This document shows positions 8,898 to 54,261 of a stretch of 64,000 bases of DNA, piece after piece; within the stretch, counting starts at the first letter, position 1; each line of letters begins with the position of its first letter. The DNA is from Haliclona indistincta (taxonomy: Eukaryota > Porifera > Demospongiae > Haplosclerida > Chalinidae), in contig OZ024785.1 of NCBI GenBank assembly GCA_964017065.1, positions 5,288,314 through 5,352,313 of the forward strand, given 5' to 3'. Both the position numbers and the translations under genes were made by a program. The notes beneath the pieces are model-generated. The model saw nothing but the letters and a program-made list of their open reading frames with translations, was not told the origin of the DNA and did not search any database.

Positions 8898-10810
8898 TGG
8901 TAGAACTCACCAGCGGTTCACAAGCTACTAATCACGATGAACGATATCTCATAGAAACCAATTCCAGCAGAATTCCTACCTATCATTTCCAGTAAAGTCT
9001 TCCACGTTTGCCCATCCCAAGTTTGCAAGACACCATTTCACGCTATCTAGTAGCACAAAGACCGTTTCTCGACAGGGAACAACTTCAGCGCACTGAAAGA
9101 GCTGCTCGAGAGTTTGCCAAGGAAGGATCTGAAGGGTGGAGGCTGCACAGAGAGCTAGTGGAGAGGGATAATAGAGAGCAACATACGAGCTATGTCACAA
9201 AATACTGGCACGAGCGTTTCATGAGAAATAGAAGCCCTCTTCCTCTTGGGCACAGCATTCCGTTCGGAATCAAGCGTGATCCTCGGGGACCTGATCAGAT
9301 TGAACGAGCTGTGAATATCATTCGATCTGTTGTACGCTACAAGAACTCACTCATTGACGAGAAACTGGAACCCGATGTAGTGTACTCTGGTTCACGAATC
9401 AGCCCAGAGGTCTTGAAACAGTTACTCCGTAGAGTTCCATCTCGATTCTCTACTCGTGTTGCTTCGCTTGCAGGAGCTGTTCCTCTTGACATGTCCCAGT
9501 ACAAGCATATTCTTGGCACCACTCGTGTCCCTCATAAAGGGTGCGATAAACTTACCTATTCTCTCTCCTCTCAACATATCGTTGTAATGCGAAGAGGAAA
9601 CTTGTACTCGGTCAATGTCCAGCTAGACGATGGTCTCCCAGTTCCTGCTGACAAAGTCTACTCTGATCTGTTAGCAATAGTTCAAGATCCCTCTCCTTCC
9701 TCTAGTCACTCAGTGAGCTATCTGACAGCTACAAACAGAGACTCCTGGGCTGATGCTCGTGAAGAAATGATGAACAATGTCCACAACGCTTGTGCACTTG
9801 AGAAAATAGAGTCAGCTCTCTTTGTCATGTGTCTTGATGATCATGAGCCTGATACTGAAATAAACAGATATTGCACTTTCCTTCACAACTATGGTGCAGA
9901 CAGATGGTTTGACAAGTCCTTGCAGATAGTGATATCGCCTAATGCTGACATAGGAATTATTTATGAGCACAGCTGGGGAAACTCAGGCTCTTTAGTCTCC
10001 TTCTTACGCAAGGTTTATCGTGACTCACTGTTAAGTTCAAGAATACAATCTTCGGTTCCATCGACAGACAGCAATCAAATCCACTTTGAATTAACTGACA
10101 GCTTAAAGCAAGCGATCGACGCTGCAAGAATAGTCATTGAGAACAAGTGTCGGTTATATTTTCTCAAGTATTTTAGATTGGCAGGTTATGATGCACACTT
10201 TTGGAAACAGAATGGTCTGAGTCCAAATGGTGGTTTGCAACTTGCTCTTCAAATTGCCTACTATCGTCTGTATGGCCGTTTCGATCCAACTTTCCAGCCT
10301 TGCTCTACGAGCACTTTCCTTCATGGACGTACTGAATGGTTTCGACCAGGAACAATGACTGGCTTGGCATGTGCAAAGGCAATGGAGCCATCATCAGGTG
10401 CATCAGCAGCTGACAAGGTGCGCCTACTGAGAGAGGCCATTGCTGAACTGGCGCTTCTTGTTAAGCAGGCAAAGATGGGTCAAGGGATTGACAGACACTT
10501 GTACTCTCTCAAGTGCATGGCCGAAGAAAAAAGACTCTCTTTCAGTCTTTTTGAAGATCCTGCATACTCTGATTTTAACCACTTAGTCCTGTATCCGTCC
10601 ACGATTAATGAAGAATGTCTTTCGTTTGGAGCGTATGGACCAGTTGAGCCTGATGGGATTGCTATCGCGTTTTCCTGGAGAGTAGGAGTGTTCATGTCTG
10701 GATATTCTACAGAAAAAGTGACTTCATTTGCAAGAAGTTTCACAACAGTGCTTGAAGATATTCGGACTCTATTACTGTCATATTCTGGTCATGTTAATTC
10801 TTTATTATAA
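8898..10810 (+). pseudogene. CPT2-like acyltransferase copy A with premature stop
   Basis: Homologue of mitochondrial carnitine O-palmitoyltransferase 2, which turns acylcarnitine plus CoA into acyl-CoA. The reading frame runs MVELTSGS... to IPTYHFQ and then meets TAA at 8993-8995, where copy B has TCA in the same context (QSSLPRLPIP). After the stop the frame is open for 600 codons to 10810 with no frameshift. The catalytic His is kept, but the EHSWGD block reads EHSWGNS, so the conserved Asp is Asn. The first in-frame ATG after the stop is near 9222, past the conserved N-terminal helices. Seen: one nonsense codon and one motif change. Inferred: a recently silenced copy, unless an unseen 5' exon splices in downstream of the stop. 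A TTG at 9008 is not a credible eukaryotic start. Confidence 0.75.
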
Positions 10811-11677
10811 TGCTTTGAAATATTTGATACGCTTTTAGAATTTTTGGTGGAAACATAATCTATGAAATTTCTTTCTCTAATAGCGCTTATCGATGGCTAT
10901 ATCCAGCAAGGAAATGCTCCCTCTGTCTTCGGTGCTTGTAATTTTTACCTCCTTTATCTGATCTTTTGTGTTATTTTTATTGTTTGTTTTCATGTGCTTT
11001 AGTTAGTTAGCTTAGTTATTATTTTTTTGTCTTTTTGTTGTCTTTTCTCCTTCCTTTACATCTATGTGAAGTAGTTAGCATTATTAATTGTCAGAACAAG
11101 ATTGTTTATTTACTATTGTCTTTAATAGACTCTGTGGAAGAATGTACAAGAGGAAGAACTGATAGAGCGTTCGTAGTACTATAGGAATAATAGGCCGATC
11201 ATTATGTGGTTTCACTGAAGATTTCTTTTGCTAGTTGCAGAAATAGAGGTAAGCATTTCAAGTTCACAAAATATCTGCAAAAAAAAAACATGAATTTGTC
11301 CATGCAGAATACAACTTACTGCATACATGCAATACACGTACACACATATACTGCAGATTTATAGTTCACCTGTTTGGTACATTATAAAAGTTCTGGAAAT
11401 AAAGGATAATGCATGCTTGGTCCACCCCAATCCCCCCATCATAGTATGAAGAGTAGACCAGAAACAATCAAATTCCACTACTCTCGTGTGGTTGGCTTGC
11501 CTATGTGGTGCTCTGCTGCAGTAGATGTTGCTGTTAAAAATAACTACAGATTCGAAACTTTCACTAGACCAAGAGTATTGGTTTAGTGAAACTTAGAAAT
11601 TCTACAAGCAGCGCAGAAAAAGGACGCATGGCATCCAATAATCCTATTGGGCGGGGTCAACTACATGCCCCGCCCCA
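10811..11677. other. Intergenic spacer between CPT2 copies A and B
   Basis: No gene is seen. The first part is T-rich. A block at 11149-11200 ('acaagaggaagaactgatag', then 'cgttcgta') recurs near 14370-14415 in the decayed part of the array. From 11330 the sequence is the duplicated 5' flank of the next CPT2 copy. Confidence 0.6.
11330..11660. repeat. Duplicated 5' flank of CPT2 copy B
   Basis: Matches 8416-8790 upstream of copy A with small insertions and deletions. It shows that the tandem duplication included upstream DNA and that copy B inherited a promoter. Confidence 0.7.
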
Positions 11678-13660
11678 ATGACTGCTCGTGGTCCATGGAG
11701 GTCATTGTCGTCGTCTGTAGCTTTAGCACGAATGTCCAGTGTAGAACTCACCAGCGGTTCACAAGCTACTAATCACGACGAACGGTATCTCATAGAAACC
11801 AATTCCAGCAGAATTCCTACCTATCATTTCCAGTCAAGTCTTCCGCGTTTGCCCATCCCAAGTTTGCAAGACACCATTTCACGCTATCTAGCAGCACAAA
11901 GACCGTTTCTCGACAGGGAACAACTTCAGCACACTGAGAGAGCTGCTCGAGAGTTTGCCAAGGAAGGATCTGAAGGATGGAGGCTGCACAGAGAGCTAGT
12001 GGAGAGGGACAGTAGAGAGCAACACACGAGCTATGTCACAAAATACTGGCACGAGCGTTACATGAGAAATAGAAGCCCTCTTCCTCTTGGGCACAGCGTT
12101 CCGTTCGGAATCAAGCGTGATCCTCGGGGACCTGATCAGATTGAACGAGCTGTGAATATCATTCGATCTGTTGTACGCTACAAGAACTCACTCATTGACG
12201 AGAAACTGGAACCAGATGTAGTGTACTCTGGTTCACGAATCAGCCCAGAGGTCTTGAAACAGTTACTCTGTAGAGTTCCATCTCGATTCTCTACTCGTGT
12301 TGCTTTGCTTGCAGGAGCTGTTCCTCTCGACATGTCCCAGTACAAGCGTATTCTTGGCACCACTCGTGTCCCTCATAAAGGGTGTGATGAACTTACCTAT
12401 TCTCTCTGCTCTCAGCATATTGTTGTAATGCGAAGAGGAAACTTGTACTCGGTCAATGTCCAGCTAGACAATGGTCTCCCAGTTCCTGCTGACAATCTCT
12501 ACTCTGATCTGTTAGCAATAGTTCAAGATCCTTCTCCTTCCTCTAGTCACTCAGTGAGCTATCTGACAGCTACAAACAGAGACTCCTGGGCTGATGCTCG
12601 TGAAGAAATGATGAACAATGTCCACAACGCTCGTGCACTTGAGGAAATAGAGTCAGCTCTCTTTGTCGTGTGTCTTGATGATCATGAGCCTGATACTGAA
12701 CTGGACAGATCTTACACTTTCCTTCACAACTATGGTGCAGACAGATGGTTTGACAAGTCCTTGCAGATAGTGGTATCGCCTAATGCTGACGCAGGAATTA
12801 ATTTTGAGCACAGCTGGGGAGACTCAGGCACTGTAGTGTCCTTCTTACGCAAGGTTTATCGTGACTCACTGTTAAGTTCAAGAATACAATCTTCGGTTCC
12901 ATCGACAGACATCAATCAAATCCACTTTAATTTAACTGACAGGTTAAAGCAAGCAATCGACGCTGCAAGATTAGACATTGAGAATAAGTGTCGGTTATTT
13001 TTTCTGAAGCATTTTAGTCTGGCAGGTTATGATGCGAACTTCTGGAAACAGAATGGTCTGAGTCCAAATGGCATCTTACAACTTGCTCTTCAGATTGCCT
13101 ACTATCGTCTGCACGGCCGTTTTGATCCAACTATCCAGCCTTGCTCTACGAGCAGTTTTCTTGATGGACGTACTGAATGGTTGCGACCAGGAACAATGGC
13201 TGCTATGGCATGTGCAAAGGCAATGGAGCCATCATCAGGTGTATCAGCAGCTGACAAGGTGCACCTACTAAAAGAGGCTACTGCAGAACTGGCACTTCTT
13301 GCTAAGCAGGCAAGAATGGGTCAAGGGTTTGACAGACACTTGTACTCTCTAAAGTGCATGGCTGAAGAAAAAAGGCTCTCTTTGGATTTATTTGAAGATC
13401 CCGCATACTCTGATTTGAACCACTTAGTCCTGTATCCGTCCACGATTGGTAAAGAATGTCTTTCATTTGGAGCGTATGGACCAGTTGAGCTAGATGGGAT
13501 TGCTATTGGGTTTTTCTGGATTGAAGGAGGGCTGGATATGTTCATGTCTGGATATTCTACAGAGAAAGTGACTTCATTTGCAATAAGTTTCACAACAGTG
13601 CTTGAAGATATTCGGATTCTATTATTGTCATGTTCTGGTAATGTTGATTCTTTATTATAA
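11678..13660 (+). CDS. CPT2: Carnitine O-palmitoyltransferase 2-like, copy B
   Basis: Predicted mitochondrial inner-membrane carnitine acyltransferase of fatty-acid beta-oxidation. Single exon, 660 aa (human CPT2 is 658). The N terminus (MTARGPWRSLSSSVALARMS) is rich in Arg/Ser and poor in acids, as expected for a mitochondrial presequence. Family blocks in order: IPTYHFQSSLPRLPIP near residue 46, PLDMSQY near 207, TRVP near 218, NRDSWAD near 298, DRWFDKSLQ near 356, the catalytic EHSWGD near 377, CSTSSFLDGRTEW near 490, and MGQGFDRHLYSLK near 547. The closeness of NRWFDKS, EHSWGD and GQGFDRHL to CPT2 rather than CPT1/CRAT decides the assignment. No transmembrane pair of CPT1 type is present. 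It is one of three tandem paralogues, and the start ATG lies in the region shared with copy A. Confidence 0.9.
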   Translation: MTARGPWRSLSSSVALARMSSVELTSGSQATNHDERYLIETNSSRIPTYHFQSSLPRLPIPSLQDTISRYLAAQRPFLDREQLQHTERAAREFAKEGSEGWRLHRELVERDSREQHTSYVTKYWHERYMRNRSPLPLGHSVPFGIKRDPRGPDQIERAVNIIRSVVRYKNSLIDEKLEPDVVYSGSRISPEVLKQLLCRVPSRFSTRVALLAGAVPLDMSQYKRILGTTRVPHKGCDELTYSLCSQHIVVMRRGNLYSVNVQLDNGLPVPADNLYSDLLAIVQDPSPSSSHSVSYLTATNRDSWADAREEMMNNVHNARALEEIESALFVVCLDDHEPDTELDRSYTFLHNYGADRWFDKSLQIVVSPNADAGINFEHSWGDSGTVVSFLRKVYRDSLLSSRIQSSVPSTDINQIHFNLTDRLKQAIDAARLDIENKCRLFFLKHFSLAGYDANFWKQNGLSPNGILQLALQIAYYRLHGRFDPTIQPCSTSSFLDGRTEWLRPGTMAAMACAKAMEPSSGVSAADKVHLLKEATAELALLAKQARMGQGFDRHLYSLKCMAEEKRLSLDLFEDPAYSDLNHLVLYPSTIGKECLSFGAYGPVELDGIAIGFFWIEGGLDMFMSGYSTEKVTSFAISFTTVLEDIRILLLSCSGNVDSLL

Positions 13661-14420
13661 TGCTTTGAAATAATTATTTGCTACGCTTCGTAGTTTGTGT
13701 GGAAACATAATCTACTGGTAGAGGAAGAACAACCATATTTTGTAATTAAACCATTAGTAATTTTAAGGTTTCATAAGGTTTTCTTGGAATGATAGAGTAC
13801 TGGTATGGCTTGCCTGCAGAAAAGGTTACTTCTTTTGCATCAACAGTGCTCAAAGATGTTCAAAAACTATTTTGATTTTTCAATATAACAACACATGCGT
13901 GAGCTTCAGAATGTTCAAATAATTTGTGTGGAAATATAATCTGCTAGTAGAGGAAGAACAATGATCACAATGGTGCAAGAGGAAGAACAATGAATTAAGT
14001 TTAAAATAATCACACTTATTTATTGTATTGACTTTATGCATTAATCATTAATATTAGGCTAGTTTGCTGACATTGCTCGTGTATCGACAAAGATGCAGCA
14101 TAGAACAGCATATTTGATTGTCCTGTGTTGTGCTCTACTGCACATATCTTTAATCTATACTGTTCTTTTACTGCTACTTATGCTGAGTTGTAATGTTACT
14201 GGGTTTTCCTGGAGAGAATCAAAGGAGTGCTGAATATGCACATGTCCGGATATTCTGCACTGAGAAAAGTGAATTCATTTGCTACAAATTTAGAGCAGTG
14301 TTTGAAGATGCCTTGATGAGCTGATATTATCGTGGCAGAGTTTAAATGATGTAATCGAGTAAGAATGCACAAGAGGAAGCCCGAGCTGATAGAGCGTTCG
14401 TTGTTCTAGGAATAATAATT
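13661..14420. pseudogene. Decayed CPT2 tails and a POT gene start
   Basis: 13788-13890 resembles the last 130 bp of CPT2 copy C (gagtactgg..., ctgcagaaaaggtta) with deletions. 13900-14158 matches 17565-17780 almost base for base and ends with the first 20 or so codons of the POT transporter (MQHRTAYLIVLCCALLHISL), after which similarity stops. 14195-14335 is a second CPT2 tail, and 14370-14415 matches spacer sequence at 11149-11200. No intact frame remains. The order CPT2 tail, POT start, CPT2 tail implies lost CPT2-POT units. Confidence 0.7.
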
Positions 14421-14879
14421 ATGTTTACTGTCTCTAAACACATCCACAGCTGGTCGGGAATTAAAGGCGCAATTAAAGTACAATTTGAACTAATTATCAT
14501 TTTGTTTCTGTCAAAGCCGTCAGTCAGCCTGACTTACTACGCTCAGTTAAATACATGTAAGAGTACATGGATTTGATTCACTATAAAATCTGTTATTATT
14601 GTACGCATCATCCGTACGACCATCTCAAGTATTTCAAGTCAAGCGTGTATGCCCATAAAGGGCTTCTATTGAAGGGCTCCTGGTATTTCTCAGAAATAAT
14701 ACCAAGTAAACAGCTCCATCCAATAATTGTAATCTGACGCCACTTAGACTCAAATATCCATAGTTGTACTTTATTGATTTTACTGTGTATTGACCAGTAT
14801 TGATATACTGGTCCCTATATTAAATTTATTTTGTACTAAGCATTTTAGTCGACAAGCATTTAATTTCATCATTTCTCAT
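14421..14879. other. Intergenic sequence, no gene seen
   Basis: AT-rich sequence between the decayed CPT2/POT relics and the retrotransposon relic. I find no conserved frame or repeat here. Confidence 0.5.
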
Positions 14880-15183
14880 CTCCAAACCACCATTCTCCGT
14901 CTATATCACCATTCTCCGTCTATATCACCTAACTCCTCTTCCCGACGTACTCATGCTAAACTTGCGCACAAATTTCTTAATAACATCCTTTTCTTCCCCA
15001 TTCATTCTATCCTTCTGCAAACTTTCCTCTAGACTCTCTACAGCACTTCGACCCTCTAAATTTTTCCATCTCATTCACTCATTCATCTCGGCTCCTCCTA
15101 TTGTTTCCCGCCTTGCATGGAACTCTGTCCCGTCGGCATGCGGCTCTCCGCTCCAGGCTCTACTATTTCAAGAAAAAGATTAA
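14880..15183 (+). mobile_element. Relic of a non-LTR retrotransposon C terminus
   Basis: Two frames carry pieces that look like the end of a LINE reverse-transcriptase polyprotein: RRTHAKLAHKFLNNI near 14941-14985, and RLAWNSVPSACGSP near 15110-15150, which resembles the usual 'WNSLP' tail. A frame change between them shows decay. No catalytic RT block is visible, so the family cannot be named. Confidence 0.4.
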
Positions 15184-15517
15184 ACCCTAATGACTACCTA
15201 CCTCCTAATTTACTTTTTTATTTGATACTCTTAGCACTCTAGCTCAATATAGATGATGAGTGTCTTTTTGCACCCCAAACTGGATGCGGGCGACGTGACT
15301 CGGCGGAAAAGATGAAAATTACCCGCCAGAAGGCACTGGCCGGAGACGAGACTCTTCGCTTGTAGGTCGTTGTAATGGTAATGTATCGGGCTGCATGCAT
15401 GATGACCGCAGCCTGCTGCCCTGGACCTACATGTGTAGACCTGATTTCAGCCCGGCACGTCAAGGAAGTGCAATTAACGGTATAATAAATTTGTAACGGA
15501 ATTGCGGACTGCCGAGT

Positions 15518-15526
15518 CTATATAAG
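15518..15526 (+). promoter_or_regulatory. TATA box of CPT2 copy C
   Basis: The sequence 'ctatataag' lies 48 bp before the ATG of CPT2 copy C. This upstream region differs from the flanks of copies A and B, so copy C has its own promoter. Confidence 0.5.
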
Positions 15527-15573
15527 TCCTATTTCTGGAGGGTGTCCTGCAACTATAGTTTAATAGCCGGACT

Positions 15574-17514
15574 ATGGCCACGTCAAGGTTGCCGCAATTG
15601 CATGCTTTAGCACAAACGAGTCGTTTGAAATTCTTGAACTACACACGAGCTGATGATAACGGGCGCTATCTCCTGGAAACCCGCAGTACCAGTCGAATTC
15701 CTACCTATCATTTTCAAACAAGTCTTCCTCGTTTACCCATTCCAAACTTGCAAGACACCATTTCACGATATTTGGCAGCACAAAGACCGTTCCTCAACAG
15801 AGAACGATTTCAGCGCACTGAGGGAGCTGCTCGAGAGTTCATCAAGGAAGGATCTGAAGGATGGAGGCTCCACAGAGAGCTAGTGGAGAGGGACAGTAGA
15901 GAGCAACACACGAGCTATGTTGCAAAATACTGGCACGAGCGTTACATGAGAAATAGAAGCCCTCTTCCTTTAATCGGTCTCAGTTCTTCACTTGGAATGA
16001 AGCATGATCTTAAGGAACTTAGTCAGATTGAACGAGCTGTGAATATCATTCGATCTGTTGTACGCTACAAGAATTCACTCATTGATGAGAAACTGGAACC
16101 CGATGTAGTGTACTCTGGTTCACGAATCAGCCCCGAGGCCTTGAAACAGTTACTCTGTAGAGTTCCATCTCGGTTCTCCACTCGTGTTGCTTCGCTTGCA
16201 GGAGCTGTTCCTCTCAACATGTCTCAGCACAAGCATATTCTTGGCACCACTCGTGTCCCTCGTAAAGGGTGCGATGAACTTACCTATTCTCTCTCCTCTC
16301 AACATATCGTTGTAATGAGAAGAGGAAACTTGTACTCGGTCAATGTCCAGCTAGGCAATGGTCTCCCAGTTCCTGCTGATCAACTCTACTCTGATCTGTT
16401 AGCAATAGTTCGTGATCCTTCTCCTTCCTCTAGTCACTCAGTGAGCTATCTGACAGCTACAAACAGAGATTCCTGGGCTGATGCTCGTGAAAAAATGATG
16501 AAAAATGTCCACAACGCTCGTGCACTTGAGAAAATAGAGTCAGCTCTCTTTGTCGTGTGTCTTGATCATCATCAACCTGATTCTGAAATAAACAGATATA
16601 GCACTTTCCTTCACAACTATGGTGTGAACAGATGGTTTGACAAGTCCTTGCAGATAGTGGTATCGCCTAATGCTGAGGCTGGAGTTGTTTTTGAGCACAG
16701 CTGGGGAGATGCAGGCACTGTAGTGTCCTTTATGGACAAAATATACCAAGACTCGTTGTCAAGCCCAAGAATACCATCCCTGGGAGTGGCTAACGTCAAT
16801 CAAATCCACTTTCATTTAACAGACAGTTTGAAGCAAGCAATTGATTGTGCAAAAGTAGACATAGAAGACAAGTGTCAGTTGTTTTCTTTAAAACATTTCA
16901 ATTCAGGGTATGACAAAATGTTTTGGAAACAAAATGGCCTGAGTCCAAATGGTGCCTTGCAACTTGCTCTTCAAATTGCCTACTATCGTCTGTATGGCCG
17001 TTTTGATCCAACTTTCCAGCCTTGCTCTACAAGCAGTTTTCTTGATGGACGAACTGAATGGTTGCGACCAGGAACAATGGCTGTTATGGCATGTGCAAAG
17101 GCAATGGAGCCATCATCAGGTGCATCAGCAGCTGACAAGGTGCACCTACTAAAAGAGGCCATTGCAGAACTGGCGCTTCTTGTTAAGCAGGCAAAGATGG
17201 GTCAAGCGTTTGACAGACACTTGTACTCTCTCAAGTGCATGGCCGAAGAAAAAAGTCTATCTTTAAGTCTTTTTGAAGATCCTGCATACTCTGATTTGAA
17301 CAACTTAGTCCTGTATCCATCCACAGTTGATGGAGAATGTCTTTCGTTTGTAACCTATGGACCTGCTGAAAAAGATGGGACCGCAATAAGGTTTTCTTGG
17401 GAAGATGGAGTACTGGCTATATTGATGAGTGGTTTGTCTGCAGAAAAGGTTAATTCTTTTGCAACAAGTTTTACAACAGTACTTGAAGATATTCGAAAAC
17501 TAATACTGTCATGA
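15574..17514 (+). CDS. CPT2: Carnitine O-palmitoyltransferase 2-like, copy C
   Basis: Third tandem paralogue, single exon, 646 aa. Same role as copy B: acyl transfer between carnitine and CoA in mitochondria. The N terminus (MATSRLPQLHALAQTSRLKF) has the Arg/Ser/Ala bias of a mitochondrial presequence and differs from copy B, while the rest is closely similar from RIPTYHFQTSLPRLPIP onward. Key blocks: NRWFDKSLQ near residue 352, the catalytic EHSWGDAGTVVSF near 373, CSTSSFLDGRTEW near 486, MGQAFDRHLYSLK near 543. It lacks the final dozen or so residues of copy B. It has diverged more than A and B have from each other (for example a two-residue change at PLPLIGLSSSLGMKHD), so it is the older branch. 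Whether copies B and C are redundant cannot be told from sequence. Confidence 0.88.
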   Translation: MATSRLPQLHALAQTSRLKFLNYTRADDNGRYLLETRSTSRIPTYHFQTSLPRLPIPNLQDTISRYLAAQRPFLNRERFQRTEGAAREFIKEGSEGWRLHRELVERDSREQHTSYVAKYWHERYMRNRSPLPLIGLSSSLGMKHDLKELSQIERAVNIIRSVVRYKNSLIDEKLEPDVVYSGSRISPEALKQLLCRVPSRFSTRVASLAGAVPLNMSQHKHILGTTRVPRKGCDELTYSLSSQHIVVMRRGNLYSVNVQLGNGLPVPADQLYSDLLAIVRDPSPSSSHSVSYLTATNRDSWADAREKMMKNVHNARALEKIESALFVVCLDHHQPDSEINRYSTFLHNYGVNRWFDKSLQIVVSPNAEAGVVFEHSWGDAGTVVSFMDKIYQDSLSSPRIPSLGVANVNQIHFHLTDSLKQAIDCAKVDIEDKCQLFSLKHFNSGYDKMFWKQNGLSPNGALQLALQIAYYRLYGRFDPTFQPCSTSSFLDGRTEWLRPGTMAVMACAKAMEPSSGASAADKVHLLKEAIAELALLVKQAKMGQAFDRHLYSLKCMAEEKSLSLSLFEDPAYSDLNNLVLYPSTVDGECLSFVTYGPAEKDGTAIRFSWEDGVLAILMSGLSAEKVNSFATSFTTVLEDIRKLILS

Positions 17515-17713
17515 TGATTTTTTCATAACAACACATGCATGAGCTTCAGAATGTTTGATAATGCTTCAAATAATTTGTGTGGAAACATAATCTGCTTGTA
17601 GAGGAAGAACAACTAGTTAAGTAAACATTGATCATACTTATTTATTGCATTGACTTTATGTATTATCAATAATATTAGGCTAGTTTGCTAACGTTGCTCG
17701 TGTATCGACAAAG

Positions 17714-19396
17714 ATGCAGCATAGAACAGCTTATTTGATTGTCCTGTGTTGTGCTCTACTACACATATCTTTAATAGGATCTGATATTGTTCTGTGTCAC
17801 ACCGTATCCAGGCACGCCATGTTACTGTTCTCTGTGAGTCAAGCAGTCTCTTATCTTCTCTATCCTTTGCTTGGCTGGATGGCTGATGTCTGCTTCACTA
17901 GATACAAGTTTGTCTTGTTCTCCTTCATCATCATGATATTGGGTAGTTTAGTAATGGCTGTAGCAGCTGTCTCTATTATGATGTTACCACAAATAAGATT
18001 GGCACTGTACTCCATCCCAGCTCTTACTATAGTCATCTGTCTCACTGGAATTGGTCTGTTTGAGTCCACTGCCATACAGTTCGGTATGGACCAGATGCTG
18101 GAGGCCTCTTCAGATGAGTTGAGCACTTTCATTCACTGGTACTACTGGAGTAAACAATTGGGTAACCTGGTGATCGGGTATGTGGCTTATGCTGTGTTGT
18201 TCTACGTTCACCACTGTCTTATAAAGCTTCAAGAATTGAATGGATTAGTTATCAAAACAGCTAACATTGTGGCATTGTTTAGTTCTGGTCTACAGCTGGT
18301 ATGTGCTAGCACAGGTTTGGGTTTGCTGGTATACTGTAAGAGGTATCTCAATATTGATCGAACTGGTGATCATCCACTCAAGCTCATCTATCAAGTGCTC
18401 AGGTATGCCTGGAAGCACAAATGTTCGGAGAACCGCAGCGCCTTCACTTACTGGGAGGAGGATATTCCACCACGTATTGACCTGGGCAAGAGCAAGTATG
18501 GAGGACCATTCACCACTGAGGAGGTGGAGGACACCAAGACATTCCTGCGTATCCTTGTTCTATTTATGTCCTTGCTAGGATTCCATCTCTCAGGACATGG
18601 CTACTCATTGTCAAGCCAACTAACAAAAAGACAATGTTTTTCCTCATTTGCCGCAGGATTTGCTGCAGATCCAATGAATTCAATGCTAATAATGATTTTT
18701 ATTGGAGTTCCATTGTATCAACTGATGATTCGATACTGTAAGAAGTGTGTTCCAAACATGCTCAAACGAATGGGACTAGGCTTACTGTGTTGCCTGGTAA
18801 AAGTGCTTGCTGAGATTACTATTCATGGAACAATGTCTAATAGACCAGCTTGCAAGAACCTCACTGGTAACCCTATCTTATCTTGCCTTTTTGTCATAGT
18901 ACAATTCAATGTCAATGGTACATGCTCTGGAATCCATAACTACTGCCATCTCTACAACCTGCCATTTCTTCTGACCATTGTTCCGAATGTTCTCCAAGGC
19001 TTTGCATTTCTATTGGTTTTCATGACCACTCTTGAGTTCATCTGTGCTCAGGCTCCTCTCCGACTGAAGGGCCTGCTCATTGGTATCTGGTATGCATCGG
19101 CAGCTGTCTACTACCTGCCGGTTAGAATTTCTGATCTTTTTGTCACTAGTGTCACATCATGGGAGGTGTTGCATGAGGTGAAGGCTTTCTTGATCTTTTT
19201 GTCTCTGATGCTGTTCTTGTGTGTGTCTAAATGGTATCGCTATCGTCTGCGAGATGAGGTGGTGAATGAGCAGTTCCTAGTGGAGGAGATATACGAACGA
19301 CAAATATCCCAGGCAGAGGAATATGAAAGTGAGCAGCAAGAAATAGACAAAGGGATTGTTGTCTGCAGTCAAGTCTATGGATCATTTGAGCAATAA
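17714..19396 (+). CDS. POT/SLC15-like MFS transporter, copy 1
   Basis: Predicted multi-pass membrane transporter of the proton-dependent oligopeptide (POT/PTR, SLC15-like) branch of the major facilitator superfamily; the substrate is unknown. Single exon, 560 aa. Motifs: GWMADVCFTRYK near residue 54, corresponding to the family's GxxxADxxxGRYK loop, and FGMDQ near 121 followed by HWYYWSKQLGN near 139, corresponding to FGADQ...FxxFYWxINxG. About ten to twelve hydrophobic segments are visible. A long loop (AFTYWEEDIPPRIDLGKSKY, near 244-265) splits the two halves, and the tail is acidic. The canonical POT proton-coupling ExxER motif is not evident at the N terminus, so transport mode is uncertain. 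The gene follows CPT2 copy C by 200 bp and belongs to the same duplicated unit. Confidence 0.75.
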   Translation: MQHRTAYLIVLCCALLHISLIGSDIVLCHTVSRHAMLLFSVSQAVSYLLYPLLGWMADVCFTRYKFVLFSFIIMILGSLVMAVAAVSIMMLPQIRLALYSIPALTIVICLTGIGLFESTAIQFGMDQMLEASSDELSTFIHWYYWSKQLGNLVIGYVAYAVLFYVHHCLIKLQELNGLVIKTANIVALFSSGLQLVCASTGLGLLVYCKRYLNIDRTGDHPLKLIYQVLRYAWKHKCSENRSAFTYWEEDIPPRIDLGKSKYGGPFTTEEVEDTKTFLRILVLFMSLLGFHLSGHGYSLSSQLTKRQCFSSFAAGFAADPMNSMLIMIFIGVPLYQLMIRYCKKCVPNMLKRMGLGLLCCLVKVLAEITIHGTMSNRPACKNLTGNPILSCLFVIVQFNVNGTCSGIHNYCHLYNLPFLLTIVPNVLQGFAFLLVFMTTLEFICAQAPLRLKGLLIGIWYASAAVYYLPVRISDLFVTSVTSWEVLHEVKAFLIFLSLMLFLCVSKWYRYRLRDEVVNEQFLVEEIYERQISQAEEYESEQQEIDKGIVVCSQVYGSFEQ

Positions 19397-19632
19397 GACA
19401 TAGATGTATTTTCAACAACTCATTGCATGTGTACACAAACACATACATCATACACACGTTTTGATTTCACAATATTTCTAGCTTGCTTGTAATGCCAAAA
19501 GTAAAAGTGTCTTTAACACAGGTAGCATCCTGTCTGTGAAGGAAAAGCAGGTATGATGTAGATAACTGCACTTAAATCTGTGTTACATGAAACTGTAGAG
19601 TAGTAGTCGACTGACACAGCTCTACGTGCAAG

Positions 19633-21321
19633 ATGCAGCATAAAATGGCTTATCTGATTGTCCTGTGTTGTACTCTACTGCACATGTCTTTAATAGGGTC
19701 CGACTTAGTCGTGCGGCACACTGTATCTAGGAGCGGTTTGATACTGTTCTCTGTGAGTCAAGCAGTCTCTTATCTTCTCTATCCTTTGCTTGGCTGGATG
19801 GCTGATGTCTGCTTCACTAGATACAAGATTGTCTTGTTCTCCTTCATCATAATGATATTGAGTAGTTTAGTAATGGCCGTAGCAGCTGTCTCCATATTAA
19901 TATTTCCTGAAATAAAGTCGATTCTTTACTCCATCCCGGCTCTTACTATAGTCATCTGTCTTACTGGAATTGGTCTGTTTGAGTCAACTGCTATTCAGTT
20001 CGGTATGGACCAGATGCTGGAAGCTTCTTCAGATGAGTTGAGCACTTTCATCCACTGGTACTACTGGAGTAAACAATTGGGCAACCTGGTGATTGTATTC
20101 ATGGGCAATACTGTGTTGCTCTTCTTTCAACACTGTCTCATAAAGTTGAATGAAATAAGTGAATCCTTCATCAAAATTGTGATTATAATAGCATTATTTA
20201 GTTCTGGTCTACAGCTAGTATGTGCTAGCACAGGCTTGGGTTTGCTGGTATACTGTAAGAGGTATCTCAATATTGATCGAACTGGTGATCATCCACTCAA
20301 GCTCATCTTTCAAGTGCTCAGGTATGCCTGGAAGCACAAGGTGCCTGAGCATCGCAGCGCCTTTACCTACTGGGAGGAGGATATTCCACCACGTATTGAC
20401 CTGGGCAAGAGCAAGTATGGAGGACCACTCACCACTGAGGAGGTGGAGGACACCAAAACATTCCTACGAATCCTTGTTCTGTTTCTGTCCTTGCTAGGAT
20501 TTCATCTCTCAGGCCATGGCTACTCTTTGGATGATCAGATCACTCGAATTCAATGTCCTTCTCACTATGCAGTAGCATTTGCTGCAGATCCAATCAATTT
20601 TATACTCATCACAGTTCTCATCGGAGTTCCATTGTATCAACTGATGATTCGATACTGTGAGAAGTGTGTTCCTAACATGCTCAAACGAATGGGACTAGGC
20701 TTACTGTGCTGCCTGATAAAAGTGCTTGCTGAGATTGCTATTCATGCAACAATGACCAATGACAAGGCTTGCATAATTTTTCATAATAATCCTGTTAAAT
20801 CTTGCTTCTTGATTATAACGGAATTTGACATTAATGGCACTTGCTCCGTATTTCCTGAAATTCAAAATTTTTGTCGTCTAAACAACCTGCCATATCTTTT
20901 GACCATTGTTCCTAGTGTTCTCCAAGGTTTTGCATTTCTATTGGTTTTCATGACCACTCTTGAGTTCATCTGTGCTCAGGCTCCTCTCCGACTGAAGGGA
21001 CTGCTCATCGGTATCTGGTATGCATCACTAGCTATTTATCACCTGCTAGTCGAAGTTCCAGAATTGTTTGTCACTGGTGTCACATCGTGGGAGGTGCTCC
21101 ATGAGGTGAAGGCTTTCTTGATCTTTTTGTCTCTGATGCTATTCTTGTGTGTGTCTAACTGGTATCGCTATCGTCTGCGAGATGAGGTGGTGAATGAGCA
21201 GTTTCTAGTGGAGGAGATATATGAGAGAGAACTAGCTCTGGCAGAGGAGTACGAGAGAGAGAATGAATACTTAGACATCAGCTCAAGCCAGACAAGTTAT
21301 GGATCTTTCAACAATAAATAG
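19633..21321 (+). CDS. POT/SLC15-like MFS transporter, copy 2
   Basis: Tandem paralogue of the preceding gene, single exon, 562 aa, 236 bp downstream. It keeps GWMADVCFTRYK, FGMDQ, the HWYYWSKQLGN helix and the central loop. Differences cluster in short patches: around residues 25-36 (GSDLVVRHTVSRSGLI), 153-180, the extracellular-type loop near 300, the region near 380-410 and the last 25 residues. The long identical blocks between these patches suggest recent duplication or gene conversion, while the variable patches fall in predicted loops and one helix pair, where substrate contact could differ. No CPT2 remnant separates the two copies. Confidence 0.75.
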   Translation: MQHKMAYLIVLCCTLLHMSLIGSDLVVRHTVSRSGLILFSVSQAVSYLLYPLLGWMADVCFTRYKIVLFSFIIMILSSLVMAVAAVSILIFPEIKSILYSIPALTIVICLTGIGLFESTAIQFGMDQMLEASSDELSTFIHWYYWSKQLGNLVIVFMGNTVLLFFQHCLIKLNEISESFIKIVIIIALFSSGLQLVCASTGLGLLVYCKRYLNIDRTGDHPLKLIFQVLRYAWKHKVPEHRSAFTYWEEDIPPRIDLGKSKYGGPLTTEEVEDTKTFLRILVLFLSLLGFHLSGHGYSLDDQITRIQCPSHYAVAFAADPINFILITVLIGVPLYQLMIRYCEKCVPNMLKRMGLGLLCCLIKVLAEIAIHATMTNDKACIIFHNNPVKSCFLIITEFDINGTCSVFPEIQNFCRLNNLPYLLTIVPSVLQGFAFLLVFMTTLEFICAQAPLRLKGLLIGIWYASLAIYHLLVEVPELFVTGVTSWEVLHEVKAFLIFLSLMLFLCVSNWYRYRLRDEVVNEQFLVEEIYERELALAEEYERENEYLDISSSQTSYGSFNNK

Positions 21322-21634: not shown

Positions 21635-22138
21635 ATGGCTGCTGCTATTCGTGACGCTATCGAATCAGACGCCGAGTCTATCTGGCGAATTCACACCGAA
21701 TCCATCGCTAAAATATGTTCAACGCGCTACTCTCCTTCTGATATCGAGACGTGGGTACAGAGACAACAGCCAGAGAAGTATGTTCCCTTCATTCGTCAAG
21801 ACACTTTCATCGTAGCACAGACAACAACACAGACACTCCTGGGATTTGGGCACATGGGATCACGTGATGGCTGTAGCTCTTCCATGGAGATCAAAGGTCT
21901 ATATGTGTCTCCTGAAAGTGCTGGGAAAGGAATAGGGAAGATGTTGATGAGAGAATTGGAGAAGAGAGCTCGAGATCGTGGCTGTAAATTACTCGTATTA
22001 GCATCGTCCTTGAATGCTGTCGGATTTTATGAATCGTGTGGATTTTGTGTAACAAACCAATCTGGTAGTCACTGTGCTCAATGTACTAGTGGTCACCAGT
22101 CACTGCAATGTACTAATATGGAAAAAACTCTAGAATAA
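21635..22138 (+). CDS. GNAT-family N-acetyltransferase
   Basis: Predicted acetyl-CoA-dependent N-acetyltransferase; the acceptor is unknown. Single exon, 167 aa. The GNAT fold is clear: an N-terminal strand-helix (AIRDAIESDAESIWRIHTES), the acetyl-CoA pyrophosphate loop AGKGIGKMLM near residue 90-99 (the R/QxxGxG/A motif, with Ala-Gly-Lys in place of Arg/Gln), the preceding strand IKGLYVSPE, and motif B NAVGFYESCGF near 128-138. The last 25 residues are Cys/His/Ser-rich (HCAQCTSGHQSLQC), unusual for the family, and could be a small metal site. A 3' fragment of this gene recurs at 23925-24066. The start is the ATG just after a GGGGCGGGG box. Confidence 0.85.
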   Translation: MAAAIRDAIESDAESIWRIHTESIAKICSTRYSPSDIETWVQRQQPEKYVPFIRQDTFIVAQTTTQTLLGFGHMGSRDGCSSSMEIKGLYVSPESAGKGIGKMLMRELEKRARDRGCKLLVLASSLNAVGFYESCGFCVTNQSGSHCAQCTSGHQSLQCTNMEKTLE

Positions 22139-22208
22139 CTGTAACACAAAATGCTTGTTGTACACACTCAAATACTACTATAAAATACATTCATAGTTTT
22201 GATTTATG

Positions 22209-23295
22209 CTAATTTGGTAGTCCTTCATGGTCACAAGTGTATACTTGTGGAAACATAGGATCAGTGATGCCTTGCAAATTTTGGCGCCAAGCACAAGTTG
22301 GTTTGCAGCAGTCCATGGTGGTGGTTGTGCGTCCTTGACTCTGTAGCTCCATGTCTGGTCGGGGCAGTGGATAAGCTGTGTCTCCATTCTGGCGTATTCC
22401 TGTCACCTTGTAAAGATACTCTGGACACTGCACTCTAGCAAACTTGACACCAAAGTTGGCATGATATCCTCTTTGTATTGCAGTTGGACACCCATAGAGG
22501 AGTGTAGTATCTGCGAAATTGTTTGTGTTAGTCAGCTTAGAGCACTGATCAGCTGAGCGCACACCGCCACCATAACAGTTACCATCGGGCGTCCAAGCTG
22601 AAAAATCTCCCGTGAACTGAGGAGAATTGCAGTGACCACCTGAGCACACTCGACCATTCTGACAATCAGAGCTGCAAGCATCATATATTCCAAACCCTCC
22701 TCCTCCCATGAGAATATCAAACTGACCACTGGATACATCGCCGCCAGTGTTGACAGCTTGGACTATATACTTGCTGGGTGTTGGGGCACCACCATTGGTA
22801 ATCTCTAGCTGATAGCAGCTGCCACAGTCATGGATAGCTCCTATACCAGCTACAGCATACACAGCCCATGAGTTGTTATCAGCCTGAGCTGCATACTGCA
22901 TGTCAGGGCTGAGCAACATGAGATGAGGGCAGGACCATCCTATCTTACTGTCTCCTCCACCTCCGCAACCGCTCTCAGTGTTATAGTCAGCTCCTGATGA
23001 GGAGTCAGGGACTGGAGTGACCAGTCGAGAGCTGGTTTGCATGCCTGGCCATTTCCACAAGGACTGAGGCATGTTCAAGTCATGACCTAATGAAGAGTAG
23101 CATACTATCATCACCTTTCTAAGAATGGAGCAGTTTATACAGCTAGGTAACATGCCAGATTGCAAATACCAAGGGCAAGTGTCCCTAGGCTAAAATCGTG
23201 TTTTATTCTAACTTGCCTGCTGCTGTCTTTAAACCTCTTGTAAGCTCACACCCAACCAATAGGATCACCAGACTTAGACCATAGTTTAGCGCCAT
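22209..23295 (-). CDS. Secreted GH45-type endoglucanase, apparently circularly permuted, copy A
   Basis: Predicted secreted endo-beta-1,4-glucanase of glycoside hydrolase family 45. Exon 1 at 23250-23295 encodes a signal peptide (MALNYGLSLVILLVG); exon 2 at 22209-23086 joins in frame by GT-AG; 307 aa in all. In ordinary GH45 enzymes the TRYWDCCKPSC block with the first catalytic Asp is N-terminal. Here the order is SGCGGGG, then CGSCYQLEI, then NTGGDVSSGQFDILMGGG (the TGGD and general-acid Asp region), then FARVQCPEYL, and only then TTTTMDCCKPTCAW about 30 residues before the stop. All three Asp positions and most Cys are present. The alternative upstream frame starting at 23165 has no ATG in the sister copy, which favours the spliced model. 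It is convergent with GNAT. Confidence 0.8.
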
Positions 23296-23547
23296 AGTAC
23301 TGTACGCACAGTACGCTTACACTCAGCACTGCTCGAGGGCTCTGACACGTAGAGATTTTGATACGTCGACAATCTGACCGAATGGTTCGGTCCAGAATGA
23401 CGATCGGTCAAGCGGTAAGGTTCGACACGTGGCACACGTGCAAGCGTCTCTAAGATTGGCAGAACATTGACTCGATAGATCAAACAGACGGAGAAATCAC
23501 AACTTGAACAGCCTTCTAGGAGTAGTCTTTGACTTACTGCTTCGTTT

Positions 23548-23906
23548 GAACATCGCGCCATGGCAATAATAAGAAATTGAGACATTAAAATAGTCTACTT
23601 ATGCCACTACTGCAGGTCCAGGACTATGTGGTGATGTTAGTCTAGCGCGCTATGACCCTCTCCCACATCGGACCCGGGCTTTTTTTCTTTTTGCGGGAGA
23701 GGGTTATAGCGCGCTGGACTCAGCACGATGAGCATATTACTCCACCCAGTGGAGGGGACACGTCTCTTGATATGTCACTAAAAATTTAATTGCTGGACAA
23801 AATTGTTGCTCAAAAGGTGTATGTAAATTATACAGCTGCATTGCGCGAGTGTGTGATCATTTTCTCAGCTTCAAGCAGGCGGTGCGGTAAGGATGATGTG
23901 GGTGTA
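23548..23906 (+). pseudogene. Dead copy of the Ku80 5' end
   Basis: Matches 25510-25770 of the Ku80 gene: promoter, first coding exon and the start of the second exon. The start region has lost bases after ATGGC, stops follow, and a foldback insert interrupts it. Similarity ends at 'gatgtgggtgtaag', where a GNAT fragment begins. It is the by-product of the 1.9-kb tandem duplication. Confidence 0.8.
23643..23718. mobile_element. Small foldback (MITE-like) insert
   Basis: Inverted arms of 21 bp, 'agcgcgctatgaccctctccc' less its last base at the left and the complement at the right, differ at one position and flank a short T-rich loop. The insert is absent from the homologous Ku80 sequence at 25575-25595. 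It is too short to encode anything. Confidence 0.6.
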
Positions 23907-23924
23907 AGTAATGTAAATTTCTCA

Positions 23925-24066
23925 TATTAGCATCGTCCTTGAATGCTGTCGGATTTTATGAATTGTGTGGATTTTGTGTAACAAACCAATCTGGTAGTCA
24001 CTGTGCTCAATGTACTAGTGGTCACCAGTCACTGCAATGTACTAATATGGAAAAAAACTCTAGAAT
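23925..24066 (+). pseudogene. 3' fragment of the GNAT gene
   Basis: Nearly identical to 21985-22138: the last 45 or so codons, from VLASSLNAVGFYE to the stop region. An extra A near the end shifts the frame relative to the intact gene. It has no start and no acetyl-CoA loop. It begins exactly where the dead Ku80 fragment ends and so marks the duplication junction. Confidence 0.85.
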
Positions 24067-24134
24067 AACTGTAATACAAAAGCTTGTTGTACACACTCAA
24101 ATGCTACTATCAATATACATTCATAGTTTTGATA

Positions 24135-25224
24135 CTAATTTGGTAGTCCTTCATGGTCACAAGTGTATACTTGTGGAAACATAGGATCAGTGATGCCTTG
24201 CAAATTTTGGCGCCAAGCACAAGTTGGTTTGCAGCAGTCCATGGTAGTGGTTGTGCGTCCTTGATTCTGTAGCTCCATGTCTGGTCGGGGCAGTGGATAA
24301 GCTGTGTCTCCATTCTGGCGTATTCCTGTCACCTTGTAAAGATACTCTGGACACTGCACTCTAGCAAACTTGACACCAAAGTTAGTATGATATCTTCTTT
24401 CTATAGCAGTTGTACACCCATAGAGGAGTGTAGTATCTGCGAGACTGTTTGTGATTGTCAGATTTTTACACTGTTCAAGCAAGTGCACACCACCACTGTA
24501 GCAATTACCATCGGGAGTCCAAACTGAAAAATTTCCAGTGAACTGAGGTGCATTGCACTGACCACCTGAACATACTCGACCTTTCTTACAATCAGAGCTG
24601 CAGGCATCATATATTCCAAACCCTCCTCCTCCCATGAGAATGTCAAACTGACCACTGGATACATCGCCACCAGTGTTGACAGCTTGGACTATATACTTGC
24701 TGGGTGAGGGAATACTACCGCCATCGGTAATCTCTAGCTGATAGCAGCTGCCACAGTCATGGGTAGCCCCTATACCAGCTACAGCATACACAGCCCATGA
24801 GTTGTTATCAGCCTGAGCTGCATACTGCATGTCAGGACTGAGCAACATGAGATGAGGGCAGGACCATCCTATGTTACTGTCTCCTCCACCTCTGCAACTA
24901 CTAGTCGTGTTATAGTCAGCTCCTGATGAGGAGTCAGGGACTGGAGTGACCAGTCGAGACCTGGTCTGCACACCAGGCCATTTCCACAAGGACTGAGGCA
25001 TGTTGGGGTCAGGGTCTAATGAAGAGTAGCATACTATCATCACCTTTCTAACAATGGAGCAGTTTATACAGCTAGATATTATGCCAGATTGCAAATAGCA
25101 AGGGCAAGTGTCCCTATGCTAAAATCGTGTTTTATTCTAACTTGCCTGCTGCTGTCTTTAAACCTCTTGTAAGCTCACACCCAACCAATAAGATCACCAG
25201 ACTTAGACCATAGTTTAGCGCCAT
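24135..25224 (-). CDS. Secreted GH45-type endoglucanase, apparently circularly permuted, copy B
   Basis: Tandem copy of the upstream GH45 gene. Exon 1 at 25179-25224 (same 15-residue signal peptide), exon 2 at 24135-25015, 308 aa. The same permuted order is seen: SCRGGGD, CGSCYQLEI, NTGGDVSSGQFDILMGGG, FARVQCPEYL, then TTTTMDCCKPTCAW near the C terminus. Catalytic Asp residues are kept in all three blocks. Substitutions from copy A are spread through the protein (for example KKGRVCSGGQC versus QNGRVCSGGHC) with no frameshift and a one-codon length change, which suggests both copies have been under protein-level constraint. Its start codon is 292 bp from the Ku80 start, in divergent orientation. 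Confidence 0.8.
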
Positions 25225-25516
25225 AGTACTGTACGCACAGTACGCTTACACTCAACACTGCTCGAGGGCTCTGACACGTAGATTTGATACGTCGACAGTC
25301 TGACCGAATGGTTCGGTCCAGAAGGACGATCGGCCAAGCGGTACGGTTAGACACGTGCCACACGTGCACGTGTCTCCAAGGAAAGGGCGGGCTAGGCGGG
25401 CTCTCGGCAAAACATCGACTCGATAGATCGAACAGACAGAGAAATCACATCTTGAACTGCCTTCTAGGAGTAGCCTTTGACTTTCTTCTCCGTGTGAACC
25501 TTTTGAACACCGCGCC
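25225..25516. promoter_or_regulatory. Bidirectional promoter, GH45 copy B and Ku80
   Basis: The 292 bp between divergent start codons contains a short palindrome ('tactgtacgcacagtacg' at about 25227-25244), 'cacgtgccacacgtgcacgtg' E-box-like repeats near 25354 (21 bp including the flank), and no TATA box. The same region, without the Ku80 gene, is duplicated at 23296-23547. Confidence 0.5.
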
Positions 25517-26570
25517 ATGGCTAAGGTGCGCAATAATAAGAAAGAGACATTACTTATACCACTACTGCAGGACTATGTCGTGATGTGTATTGATGTTGGG
25601 CCCATGATGACCATGACTCCACCCAGTAGAGGGGACACGCCCCTTGATTTGTCACTGAAAATTGCTGGACAAATTGTTGCTCAAAAGGCATGTGTAAATT
25701 ATACAGCTGAATTGCACGCGAATGTGTGATTGTTTTCTCAGCTTCATGCAGGCGGTAAGGATGATGTGGGCGTGGTCTTATTTGGTACAGCAGACACCGA
25801 TCATAACCTGGACCAGAATGGGGACCAGTATCGCAACATCACCACATCATGGCAGCTAGTTCCTCCCTCTGTTGATCTCTTGGTCTATCTCAAGGACAAG
25901 GTCCAGCCAGGAACAGTGTCTGCTGACTGTATCCACATGCACTATGGTAGCATGATATAGTGTTTCAACTCAACCGAGTTATAAGAGAGCTAGCTATAGT
26001 GTTACACTCCTCATCTATATTATTATAGTTATTGATGCTATAGTGGTTTCCATGGATGCATTATCCCAAGCAACACAGTGAGTTGATGATGTTCAACGTA
26101 GTGTATATGTGAAACCATGGCAGCTGTATCTATAGCAGCTGTATCTATGGTAGCTAGTTAGAACTTAGTTATGAGTTTGTCGTAGTTGATGTTGGTGGTT
26201 CTGCTGTAGGAGTGCGAAGAAGATCGGACGCAAGGTGCTCTATCTGTTCACCAATGCAGCTTCAGAGTACAGCGACGATCAGCTGGACGGGATTGCTTCA
26301 GGACTCAAGCTCCAAGGGATAGAGCTGATTATAATGTGAGGGAAAGATGCTAGTTATGAACAGTTATGAAGATGCTATTTATGAACAGCAAATTGATTCT
26401 AGATCATAAACCATCGCATTATTAGTTGGGCATGGTCTCAATGCAACAGTAGTTATTATGTCCATAGCTGTAGATCTACAGTGTTCCATAATGTCTCTTA
26501 CTGTACATTACATGTTTTAATATTATTTTGTCATTCTCCCTCCCCTTTCTCTTTCTTTCTCTCTCTCTCA

Positions 26571-35348: not shown

Positions 35349-35696
35349 AACACCAATGCACTGTGTTACTGCATAGAAAGTTGTTGTTATTGCCTAATAC
35401 CAACCAATGACTCGATGCTTTATGAAACATTAATATAATTATTTATTGTTGTAACTATTATAAACATTTATCATCTGGTTATCTCCACGTACATGTGTCT
35501 GAAATTACCATATTTAGGTAGATACTATTTGACACATTTATCTTGAGTGTGTCCTCAGATGGTGTTTTGATAGCCTGCTCATAGTTATTCTAGAGTGTAG
35601 TGTAGCAAAGTACTGTGAATGTAGTCATGAGTCCAAGAGTAGGCGCGGTCGATTATGGACCTCTGATAGCAACAACGAACTGTGTAGATTAGTACG
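35349..35696. other. Intergenic spacer, no gene seen
   Basis: Ku80 3' flank and upstream region of the beta-helix gene. AT-rich first half; no convincing TATA box, repeat or small gene. Confidence 0.5.
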
Positions 35697-53325: not shown

Positions 53326-53660
53326 ACCTGTAGCCGGTAATCCACCTGTAGCCGGTAATCCACCAGTAGCCGGTAATCCACCTGTAGCCGGTAATCCACC
53401 AGTAGCCGGTAATCCACCAGTAGCCGGTAATCCACCTGTAGCCGGTAATCCACCTGTAGCCGGTAATCCACCTGTAGCCGGTAATCCACCTGTAGCCGGT
53501 AATCCACCTGTAGCCGGTAATCCACCAGTAGCCGGTAATCCACCAGTAGCCGGTAATCCACCAGTAGCCGGTAATCCAACAGTAGCCGGTAATCCACCTG
53601 TAGCCGGTAATCCACCTGTAGCCGATAATCCACCTGTAGCCGGTAATCCACCTGGAGCCT
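53326..53660 (+). repeat. Coding 18-bp minisatellite (PPVAGN), GPCR copy 2
   Basis: About 18 PPVAGN units, longer than in copy 1. The following SRSP-type repeat is shorter here (about 3 units). Confidence 0.95.
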
Positions 53661-54261
53661 GTCAACAGAATCAACCTGGATCATCTCTACAAAATCCAGA
53701 AACCAGTTCTTTTCAATCCCAATTACTTCAACCTCCTTTAACGTTTCGTACTAGTCGTTCACCAACTCCTCAGCCTCCAAATCGTTCACCATCTTCTCGG
53801 TCTTCAAGTCGTTCACCATCTCCTTGGCCTTCAAGTCATCCAGCAACTCCTCTACGCTGTCCACCGTGTGCCGAATCATCATATTCACTTTGGGTTGATG
53901 ATCCTGGTACAACTCACAAGGTACAGAACTATTTGTTAACCGCTTATGTTAACATGAATTGTAGCATGAACCAACTGATCTTCATAAGAGAAGAAGCAGT
54001 ACAATCTGTAGTGACGAAACAGATGTGGAAGTTTCTACACACATGTGAATCCGGCCCTGGTATAGTGGGACGAAAAATGGACTCTCCTTGACTGAATAAC
54101 AATTTTGATTGTGCTTGACAGTATTAATATAATACATGTAGTTGTACTATTGAAGTGAGAATGTTATCTGCCCCAGCGAAGGAACCGATTCATTAACTTG
54201 AGCGCTGTTTCACTAGATGCATAGAGTTCAGTACTATCTTACCAGCTATACTGCTAGGGAT

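Follow-up and report, generated by a model that had tools for sequence, protein, structure and literature searches.

Two tandem GH45-like genes of the sponge Haliclona indistincta with a circularly permuted order of conserved blocks

Subfamily A of the glycoside hydrolase family GH45 is represented by Cel45A of Humicola insolens (HiCel45A, PDB entries 2eng and 3eng) and by chain 5glx. In HiCel45A we take Asp121 to be the catalytic acid and Asp114 the assisting aspartate (alignment columns were matched to 3eng), while the chain is presumably stapled by seven disulfide bonds: 11-135, 12-47, 16-86, 31-56, 87-199, 89-189 and 156-167. The catalytic base of the subfamily is Asp10 (PMC10909974). Endogenous GH45 genes are also present in animal genomes, namely those of springtails, mites, beetles and nematodes, and for springtails a fungal domain architecture has been described (PMC13084967). 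The accessible parts of this paper and of PMC12198962 mention neither sponges, nor Porifera, nor permutation. The sponge Amphimedon and the sea anemone Nematostella keep seven cellulase families, with GH45 left unspecified in the available part of the source (PMC6011409), and polysaccharide hydrolases including an expansin and a member of the cellulase A family were reported for sponge mesocytes (PMC10176882), though GH45 is not named in the accessible main text. Among open-licence papers no earlier report of a permuted GH45 or of a sponge GH45 was found, which agrees with the remark of an initial annotation of this DNA that no permuted GH45 had been described.

Two GH45-like genes, designated A and B, were found in the window, i.e. 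in the whole stretch of 64,000 nucleotides of H. indistincta DNA that was analysed. They are arranged in tandem, head-to-tail on the minus strand, with B being the first in the array (Table 1). In both of them a 163-nt intron with the donor GTGAGC and the acceptor TTAG, joined in phase 1, is predicted from the sequence only, and its borders in gene A agree with the exon coordinates 23250 and 23086 proposed initially. This gene model makes a signal peptide and secretion of both products plausible. Proteins encoded by the second exons are 88% identical and begin with a tryptophan-bearing extension (MPQSLWKWPG), which is kept in both copies; in gene A the match to PF02015 begins 4 residues before the end of this extension (residue 63 in the 326-aa frame).

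Table 1. Predicted features of the two GH45-like genes (positions in the window)
Feature	Position	Strand	Description or basis
Gene A	22209-23295	minus	permuted GH45-like, predicted 307 aa
Gene A exon 1	23250-23295	minus	start codon and signal peptide MALNYGLSLVILLVG; 46 nt, predicted from sequence
Gene A intron	23087-23249	minus	163 nt, predicted; GT...TTAG boundaries, gene B likewise
Gene A exon 2	22209-23086	minus	mature permuted GH45-like protein and stop codon; open frame, PF02015 58.6 bits
Gene A N-terminal extension	22992-23084	minus	HDLNMPQSLWKWPG...DSSSG, 31 residues; no clear canonical GH45 counterpart
Gene A GH45 core	22368-22991	minus	canonical residues about 39 to 208; phmmer to PDB GH45 chains, column check
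Assisting Asp of TGGD, gene A core	22737-22739	minus	codon; alignment column
Catalytic-acid Asp of QFD, gene A core	22716-22718	minus	codon; alignment column
Gene A linker	22335-22367	minus	LPRPDMELQSQ, between matches to 3eng residue 208-209 and 2-3
Gene A moved block	22212-22334	minus	GRTTTTMDCCKPTCAW...VYTCDHEGLPN, canonical residues 3 to about 36; PDB block search
Catalytic-base Asp of DCCKPTCAW, gene A moved block	22311-22313	minus	alignment to residue 10
Gene B	24135-25224	minus	permuted GH45-like, predicted 308 aa
Gene B exon 1	25179-25224	minus	signal peptide MALNYGLSLVILLVG; 46 nt, predicted
Gene B exon 2	24135-25015	minus	same permuted order as A, including stop codon; open frame
Gene B GH45 core	24294-24920	minus	Pfam and custom profiles, column check
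Gene B moved block	24138-24260	minus	protein sequence equal to that of gene A; sequence comparison

In both proteins the domain runs from the core through an 11-residue linker to the block DCCKPTCAW and the stop codon, and the canonical linear topology, in which the base-bearing block precedes the core, is found in neither of them. In gene A the block SGCGGGG starts at 22973 and is followed by TGGD, QFD and, later, FARVQCPEYL, while DCCKPTCAW starts at 22313, that is 34 codons before the stop if counted from its Asp and 25 if counted after its Trp. This order had been noted in the initial annotation and was confirmed for both genes; its placing of the block near the stop, with a distance given there as 30 residues, is also right. 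The best PDB chain, 5glx, matched gene A in two parts, with query residues 67-177 corresponding to chain residues 44-144 and query residues 284-319 to chain residues 6-36, and in 5gly, 3eng and 2eng the C-terminal part was matched too (query about 208-276). In the comparison with 3eng the segment TGCRRNDDGNFP pairs with TGIRQNGDTAYP as the canonical tail, and 11 residues past it GRTTTTMDCC aligns with GRSTRYWDCC at 3eng residue 3. The N-terminal match following so closely on that of the tail indicates that the old ends of GH45 are fused in gene A, and the new chain ends, judging by the alignment, fall in the loop flanked by canonical residues about 36 and 39. A motif scan of the 64-kb window registered DCCKP at two sites, both in the moved blocks, and an unrelated DCCKG at 50213 on the minus strand.

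The same arrangement might arise from an incomplete gene model, if read-through splicing from B to A placed the block of B before the core of A and thereby restored the ordinary order. The two genes indeed follow each other on the same strand, block B being succeeded by core A. Block B contains four GT dinucleotides, of which two share phase 1 with the acceptor of exon 2 in gene A; a splice from the one at 24160 (T/GTGACC, within the Cys codon of VYTC) would join VYTC to HDLN of A in frame. Such splicing, however, could at most restore the order of gene A, as B is the first in the array and no other DCCKP block was found among the best-scored candidates of the genome, so that B would be left without a block before its core. 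Moreover, in both copies a single open frame runs through core and block and ends at an equal position. In the product of read-through, block and core would be separated by the 31 residues of the extension, compared to about 8 residues in 3eng (from Cys31 to the start of the core match). We therefore regard this explanation as very unlikely. Among the best-scored candidates in the 144-Mb genome there were two cores and two blocks of GH45, all of them in A and B, and no further ones.

Being searched alone against the PDB, the 41-aa C-terminal block gave 10 distinct sequences at E <= 10, all 10 belonging to GH45 (best E 6.4e-4), and its best stretches lay within the first 46 chain residues: residues 3-37 in eight sequences, 22-46 in 5h4u and 26-43 in 6mvi. 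A second, weak match of the block (3.7-4.1 bits) was located near residues 161-181 in at least five of these PDB sequences. With the Pfam GH45 profile the block alone aligned at positions 2-34 and received 14.6 bits, which is under the PF02015 cut-off of 27 bits. Whole proteins scored 58.6 (A) and 53.1 bits (B), but in linear order the best stretch covered only profile positions 38-212 and 38-159, respectively. In native order the domain of gene A scored 57.0 bits and that of gene B 51.8, each match being broken into two stretches (the best one of A at 43-212). Once the block was transferred to the front, the match became a single stretch, at 2-212 with 68.2 bits for A and at 2-158 with 62.3 bits for B. 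The gain amounts to 10.5-11.2 bits, while the controls remained at 51.3 bits for the core of gene A alone and at 52.0 (A) and 47.1 bits (B) with one shuffled block in front. The phmmer score to 5glx was 58.5 bits in native order (326-aa frame) and 76.1 bits after rotation (260 aa).

Larger differences were obtained with custom profiles made of 3eng alone or of 3eng together with the full-length myxobacterial GH45 proteins, of which 13 were included and the fourteenth, L018, was missed by the search pattern. In four runs with the N-terminal extension omitted the best single match rose from 38.1 to 61.9, from 36.0 to 59.1, from 41.3 to 61.6 and from 39.4 to 59.2 bits, the gain being 19.8 to 23.8 bits. 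The rotated match embraced the whole domain in two of these runs and ended at profile positions 136-137 in the other two. In each of the four, all 1000 block shuffles stayed below the rotated score. If all possible cuts were scanned, the most favourable one was located in a variable loop of the core and surpassed the cut at the block by 1.6-4.1 bits; since any cut keeping block and core joined is beneficial, the scan shows their joining and leaves the ancestral start unfixed. With the extension kept and a profile of these 13 myxobacterial proteins alone, rotation gave no gain (whole score of A 50.1 bits native and 49.7 rotated), which counts against a naive reading of permutation. The missing gain can be ascribed to the extension, which after rotation sits between block and core, and to the weak block of the myxobacterial proteins in this profile. 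Altogether, the PDB and profile tests and the retained cysteine pairs between block and core make the circular permutation of GH45 sequence order in A and B well supported. The idea of a natural circular permutant, put forward in the initial annotation, thus holds by sequence order, as rotation joins the profile match and shuffled blocks do not, and the comparison of linear and permuted alignments recommended there favours the rotated order with Pfam, with phmmer to 5glx and with the custom profiles free of the extension.

In the rotated-order alignment of A, B, 14 myxobacterial proteins and 3eng (17 rows) the positions of Asp10, Asp114 and Asp121 are all kept in both sponge copies, as had been annotated. 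Twelve cysteines of A and B fit by position six of the seven disulfides assumed for HiCel45A. In four of these six pairs (11-135, 12-47, 16-86 and 31-56) one partner belongs to the moved block and the other to the core, while both members of Cys87-Cys199 are absent. For each of the seven pairs either both residues or none are cysteines in all 17 rows. This speaks for the assumed pairing, with the reservation that variation is confined to 12-47, 16-86 and 87-199 and that the rows are related. The two mature proteins have 16 cysteines in common, four beyond the canonical 12. The position of residue 199 is about 10 residues before the new linker, and the latter may now serve in place of the Cys87-Cys199 bond; loss of both cysteines fits this assumption, since the linker may make such a staple of the tail redundant.

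Instead of folding back onto its own core, the moved block might act in trans and complete the active site of another molecule in a domain-swapped dimer or chain, as a linker of about 11 residues would permit either closure or swapping. Structure prediction did not place the block either: AlphaFold gave a mean pLDDT of 27.7 when only A and B were supplied, and 42.3 after addition of 28 rows obtained by splitting 14 myxobacterial proteins into block and core. Neither model displayed the six-stranded double-psi beta barrel of GH45, and in the second one, also of low confidence, 24 residues, all in the core, reached 70-90, the block staying at 35-39. Nevertheless, the assumed Cys199-Cys87 bond of the canonical enzyme, adjacent to the bond of Cys86 with Cys16 of the block, should bring the canonical ends close to each other, so that closure in cis would need no long reach, and action in trans appears improbable. 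Foldseek and VIA supplied with the same model returned unrelated chains, with no GH45 among the 50 rows listed by each; as its pLDDT is too low, these lists do not count against a GH45 fold.

Comparison of A with B gave dS of 0.17, dN of 0.058 and dN/dS of 0.34 (Fisher p 2.5e-5), and the two copies are therefore under purifying selection. The moved block differs between them by one synonymous and no non-synonymous change. Together with 97% identity of the 3' 300 nt this near constancy makes recent exchange between the copies likely in that part, hence the block alone tells little on selection; the 97% identity itself suggests gene conversion. The tandem duplication spans about 1.93 kb (21983-25756), comprises the GH45 gene with the region upstream of it and also the 3' end of a GNAT gene, and its matched pieces are 86-98% identical. 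As tandem duplication can scramble genes and the 3' identity points to recent exchange, one may suppose decaying pseudogenes or a rearrangement introduced by assembly, which would be permuted in appearance only. This is hardly compatible with permuted order being present twice, with both copies remaining open for more than 300 codons and having like predicted splice sites under the above dN/dS, or with conservation of the 16 mature cysteines and the three Asp in both, and is considered highly improbable.

Circular permutation usually proceeds through duplication of a domain and subsequent loss of its outer halves, and the initial annotation suggested this route for the sponge genes. No direct trace of it was obtained. 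By eye the N-terminal extension resembles a decayed first block, having a WPG motif and a similar distance to SGC. Its being such a relic was not supported: in 27 of 28 comparisons more than 0.1 of the shuffles were as good, and the lowest fraction was 0.044, so that its likeness to the block is not convincing against shuffles.

Expansin relatives combine a GH45-like fold with lack of hydrolysis, and the sponge proteins might likewise be folded carbohydrate-binding or signalling proteins without hydrolytic function. Their core is divergent: compared to canonical GH45 it has a 10-residue gap at NDDFALGFAA, a 15-residue insertion before this gap and an additional 16-residue insertion with three extra cysteines. 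Besides, 11 of 14 myxobacterial GH45s are devoid of at least one of Asp114 and Asp121. In both sponge copies, however, all three Asp positions persist under purifying selection, and a non-hydrolytic function seems rather unlikely.

The Myxococcota contributed 17 matches in 15 of 195 genomes, 14 of them full length and three without the block in the match. Left out of alignments were L020 (profile 48-214, no block in frame) and the short pieces L021 and L022; L003 is the same gene as L008. The 14 full-length proteins (L008-L019, L023 and L024) contain the same domain, with 31.6-37.7% identity to rotated gene A, but all have the canonical block-first order, and no permuted relative was present among the matches from these 195 genomes. 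The pair Cys16-Cys86 is absent in 14 of 14 and Cys12-Cys47 in 7 of 14, whereas A and B keep both. In 11 of the 14 (L010, L012-L019, L023 and L024) Asp10 is kept and another residue occupies the position of Asp114 or Asp121, with Glu at position 121 in four myxobacterial proteins; some of these 11 may be non-hydrolytic or use another residue. Viral contigs gave 33 pattern matches with no relatives, and bacterial genome contigs 36 pattern matches with one relative. Higher identity to 3eng (39.7% over 194 aligned columns of rotated gene A) and preservation of the pair 16-86, missing in all 14 myxobacterial sequences, make a fungal or other eukaryotic source of A and B somewhat more likely than these myxobacteria.

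The genome assembly comprises 144 Mb in 46 contigs, and the contig carrying the two genes measures 16.5 Mb. Two frames for POT-type transporters (one profile-scanned) and a GNAT acetyltransferase are their close neighbours, and matches to carnitine acyltransferase and OATP were found farther away in the window. Given the size of the genome and the matches to POT, carnitine acyltransferase and OATP, the locus most likely belongs to an animal chromosome and not to a bacterial contaminant. Several other features of the window are worth listing. Two tandem long open frames at 17684-21321 (plus strand), 84-87% alike in matched pieces, are spaced by 1919-1928 nt, nearly as the GH45 units, and the second one matches the POT family with 44.4 bits. 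Three long open frames follow in a row at 8996-17511 (plus strand); the middle one (11642-13657, plus strand) is a carnitine/choline acyltransferase (506 bits), and the outer two are alike by eye. A minisatellite-like repeat (PPVAGN on the plus strand, VDYRLQ on the minus strand) occurs at 42439-43238, 53190-54088 and 58384-59288 and adjoins related open frames at all three places; the one tested frame beside it (58416-59288) had no Pfam match. At 35688-39431 (plus strand) an open frame codes for 1248 residues, the first of which look like a signal peptide, and no Pfam match was obtained for it at E <= 0.001.

Based on these data one can assume, with a probability of about 0.8, that A and B encode secreted single-domain endo-beta-1,4-glucanases of GH45 subfamily-A-like type, which are natural circular permutants. 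Their canonical N- and C-termini would be fused via the 11-residue linker, and new ends would have opened in the loop after canonical Cys31, before the SGC motif, bringing the first strand of the barrel, on which the catalytic base Asp10 lies, near the C-terminus. The moved block presumably folds back to its usual place, where it would be stapled by 11-135, 12-47, 16-86 and 31-56 and would complete an ordinary inverting active site acting on beta-1,4-glucans, for instance those of algal or bacterial food. Chances are about even that the two genes represent a distinct animal lineage of GH45 with a permuted double-psi barrel, the base in a C-terminal strand and a disulfide traded for a linker. 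The permuted form may have become fixed in an entire clade and have escaped notice, since what profile searches return is chiefly the core.

Natural circular permutants are rare tests of the dependence of a fold on the order of its chain, and here the moved catalytic piece, the fused ends and one disulfide apparently traded make predictions on folding and stability testable against the fungal enzymes. The pair also illustrates that linear domain searches can under-call permuted enzymes, and adds an endogenous cellulase, apparently secreted according to prediction, to an animal genome.

With subfamily A enzymes (HiCel45A, 5glx) A and B have in common the PF02015 domain, the three Asp and 12 of 14 disulfide cysteine positions, and differ from them in having residues 3 to about 36 at the C-terminus, a linker between the old ends, Cys87 and Cys199 gone, the N-terminal extension and internal insertions. 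Like the GH45 genes of other animals they are endogenous, but in 5h4u, which we take to be a springtail GH45 enzyme and which was among the PDB matches, the block (residues 22-46) precedes the core (55-155), unlike in A and B. Other glycoside hydrolases with natural permutation are the GH16 lichenase of Fibrobacter and GH70 versus GH13; these, as well as TOS1, represent families and folds other than GH45. TOS1 1,3-beta-glucanase enters as an example of a permuted glycoside hydrolase by a title in the reference list of the accessible source (PMC4176579). The GH45 family itself is known, and what is new is most likely the permuted order of A and B, which, like permuted GH16, GH70/GH13 and TOS1, would exemplify natural permutation that keeps the enzyme fold.
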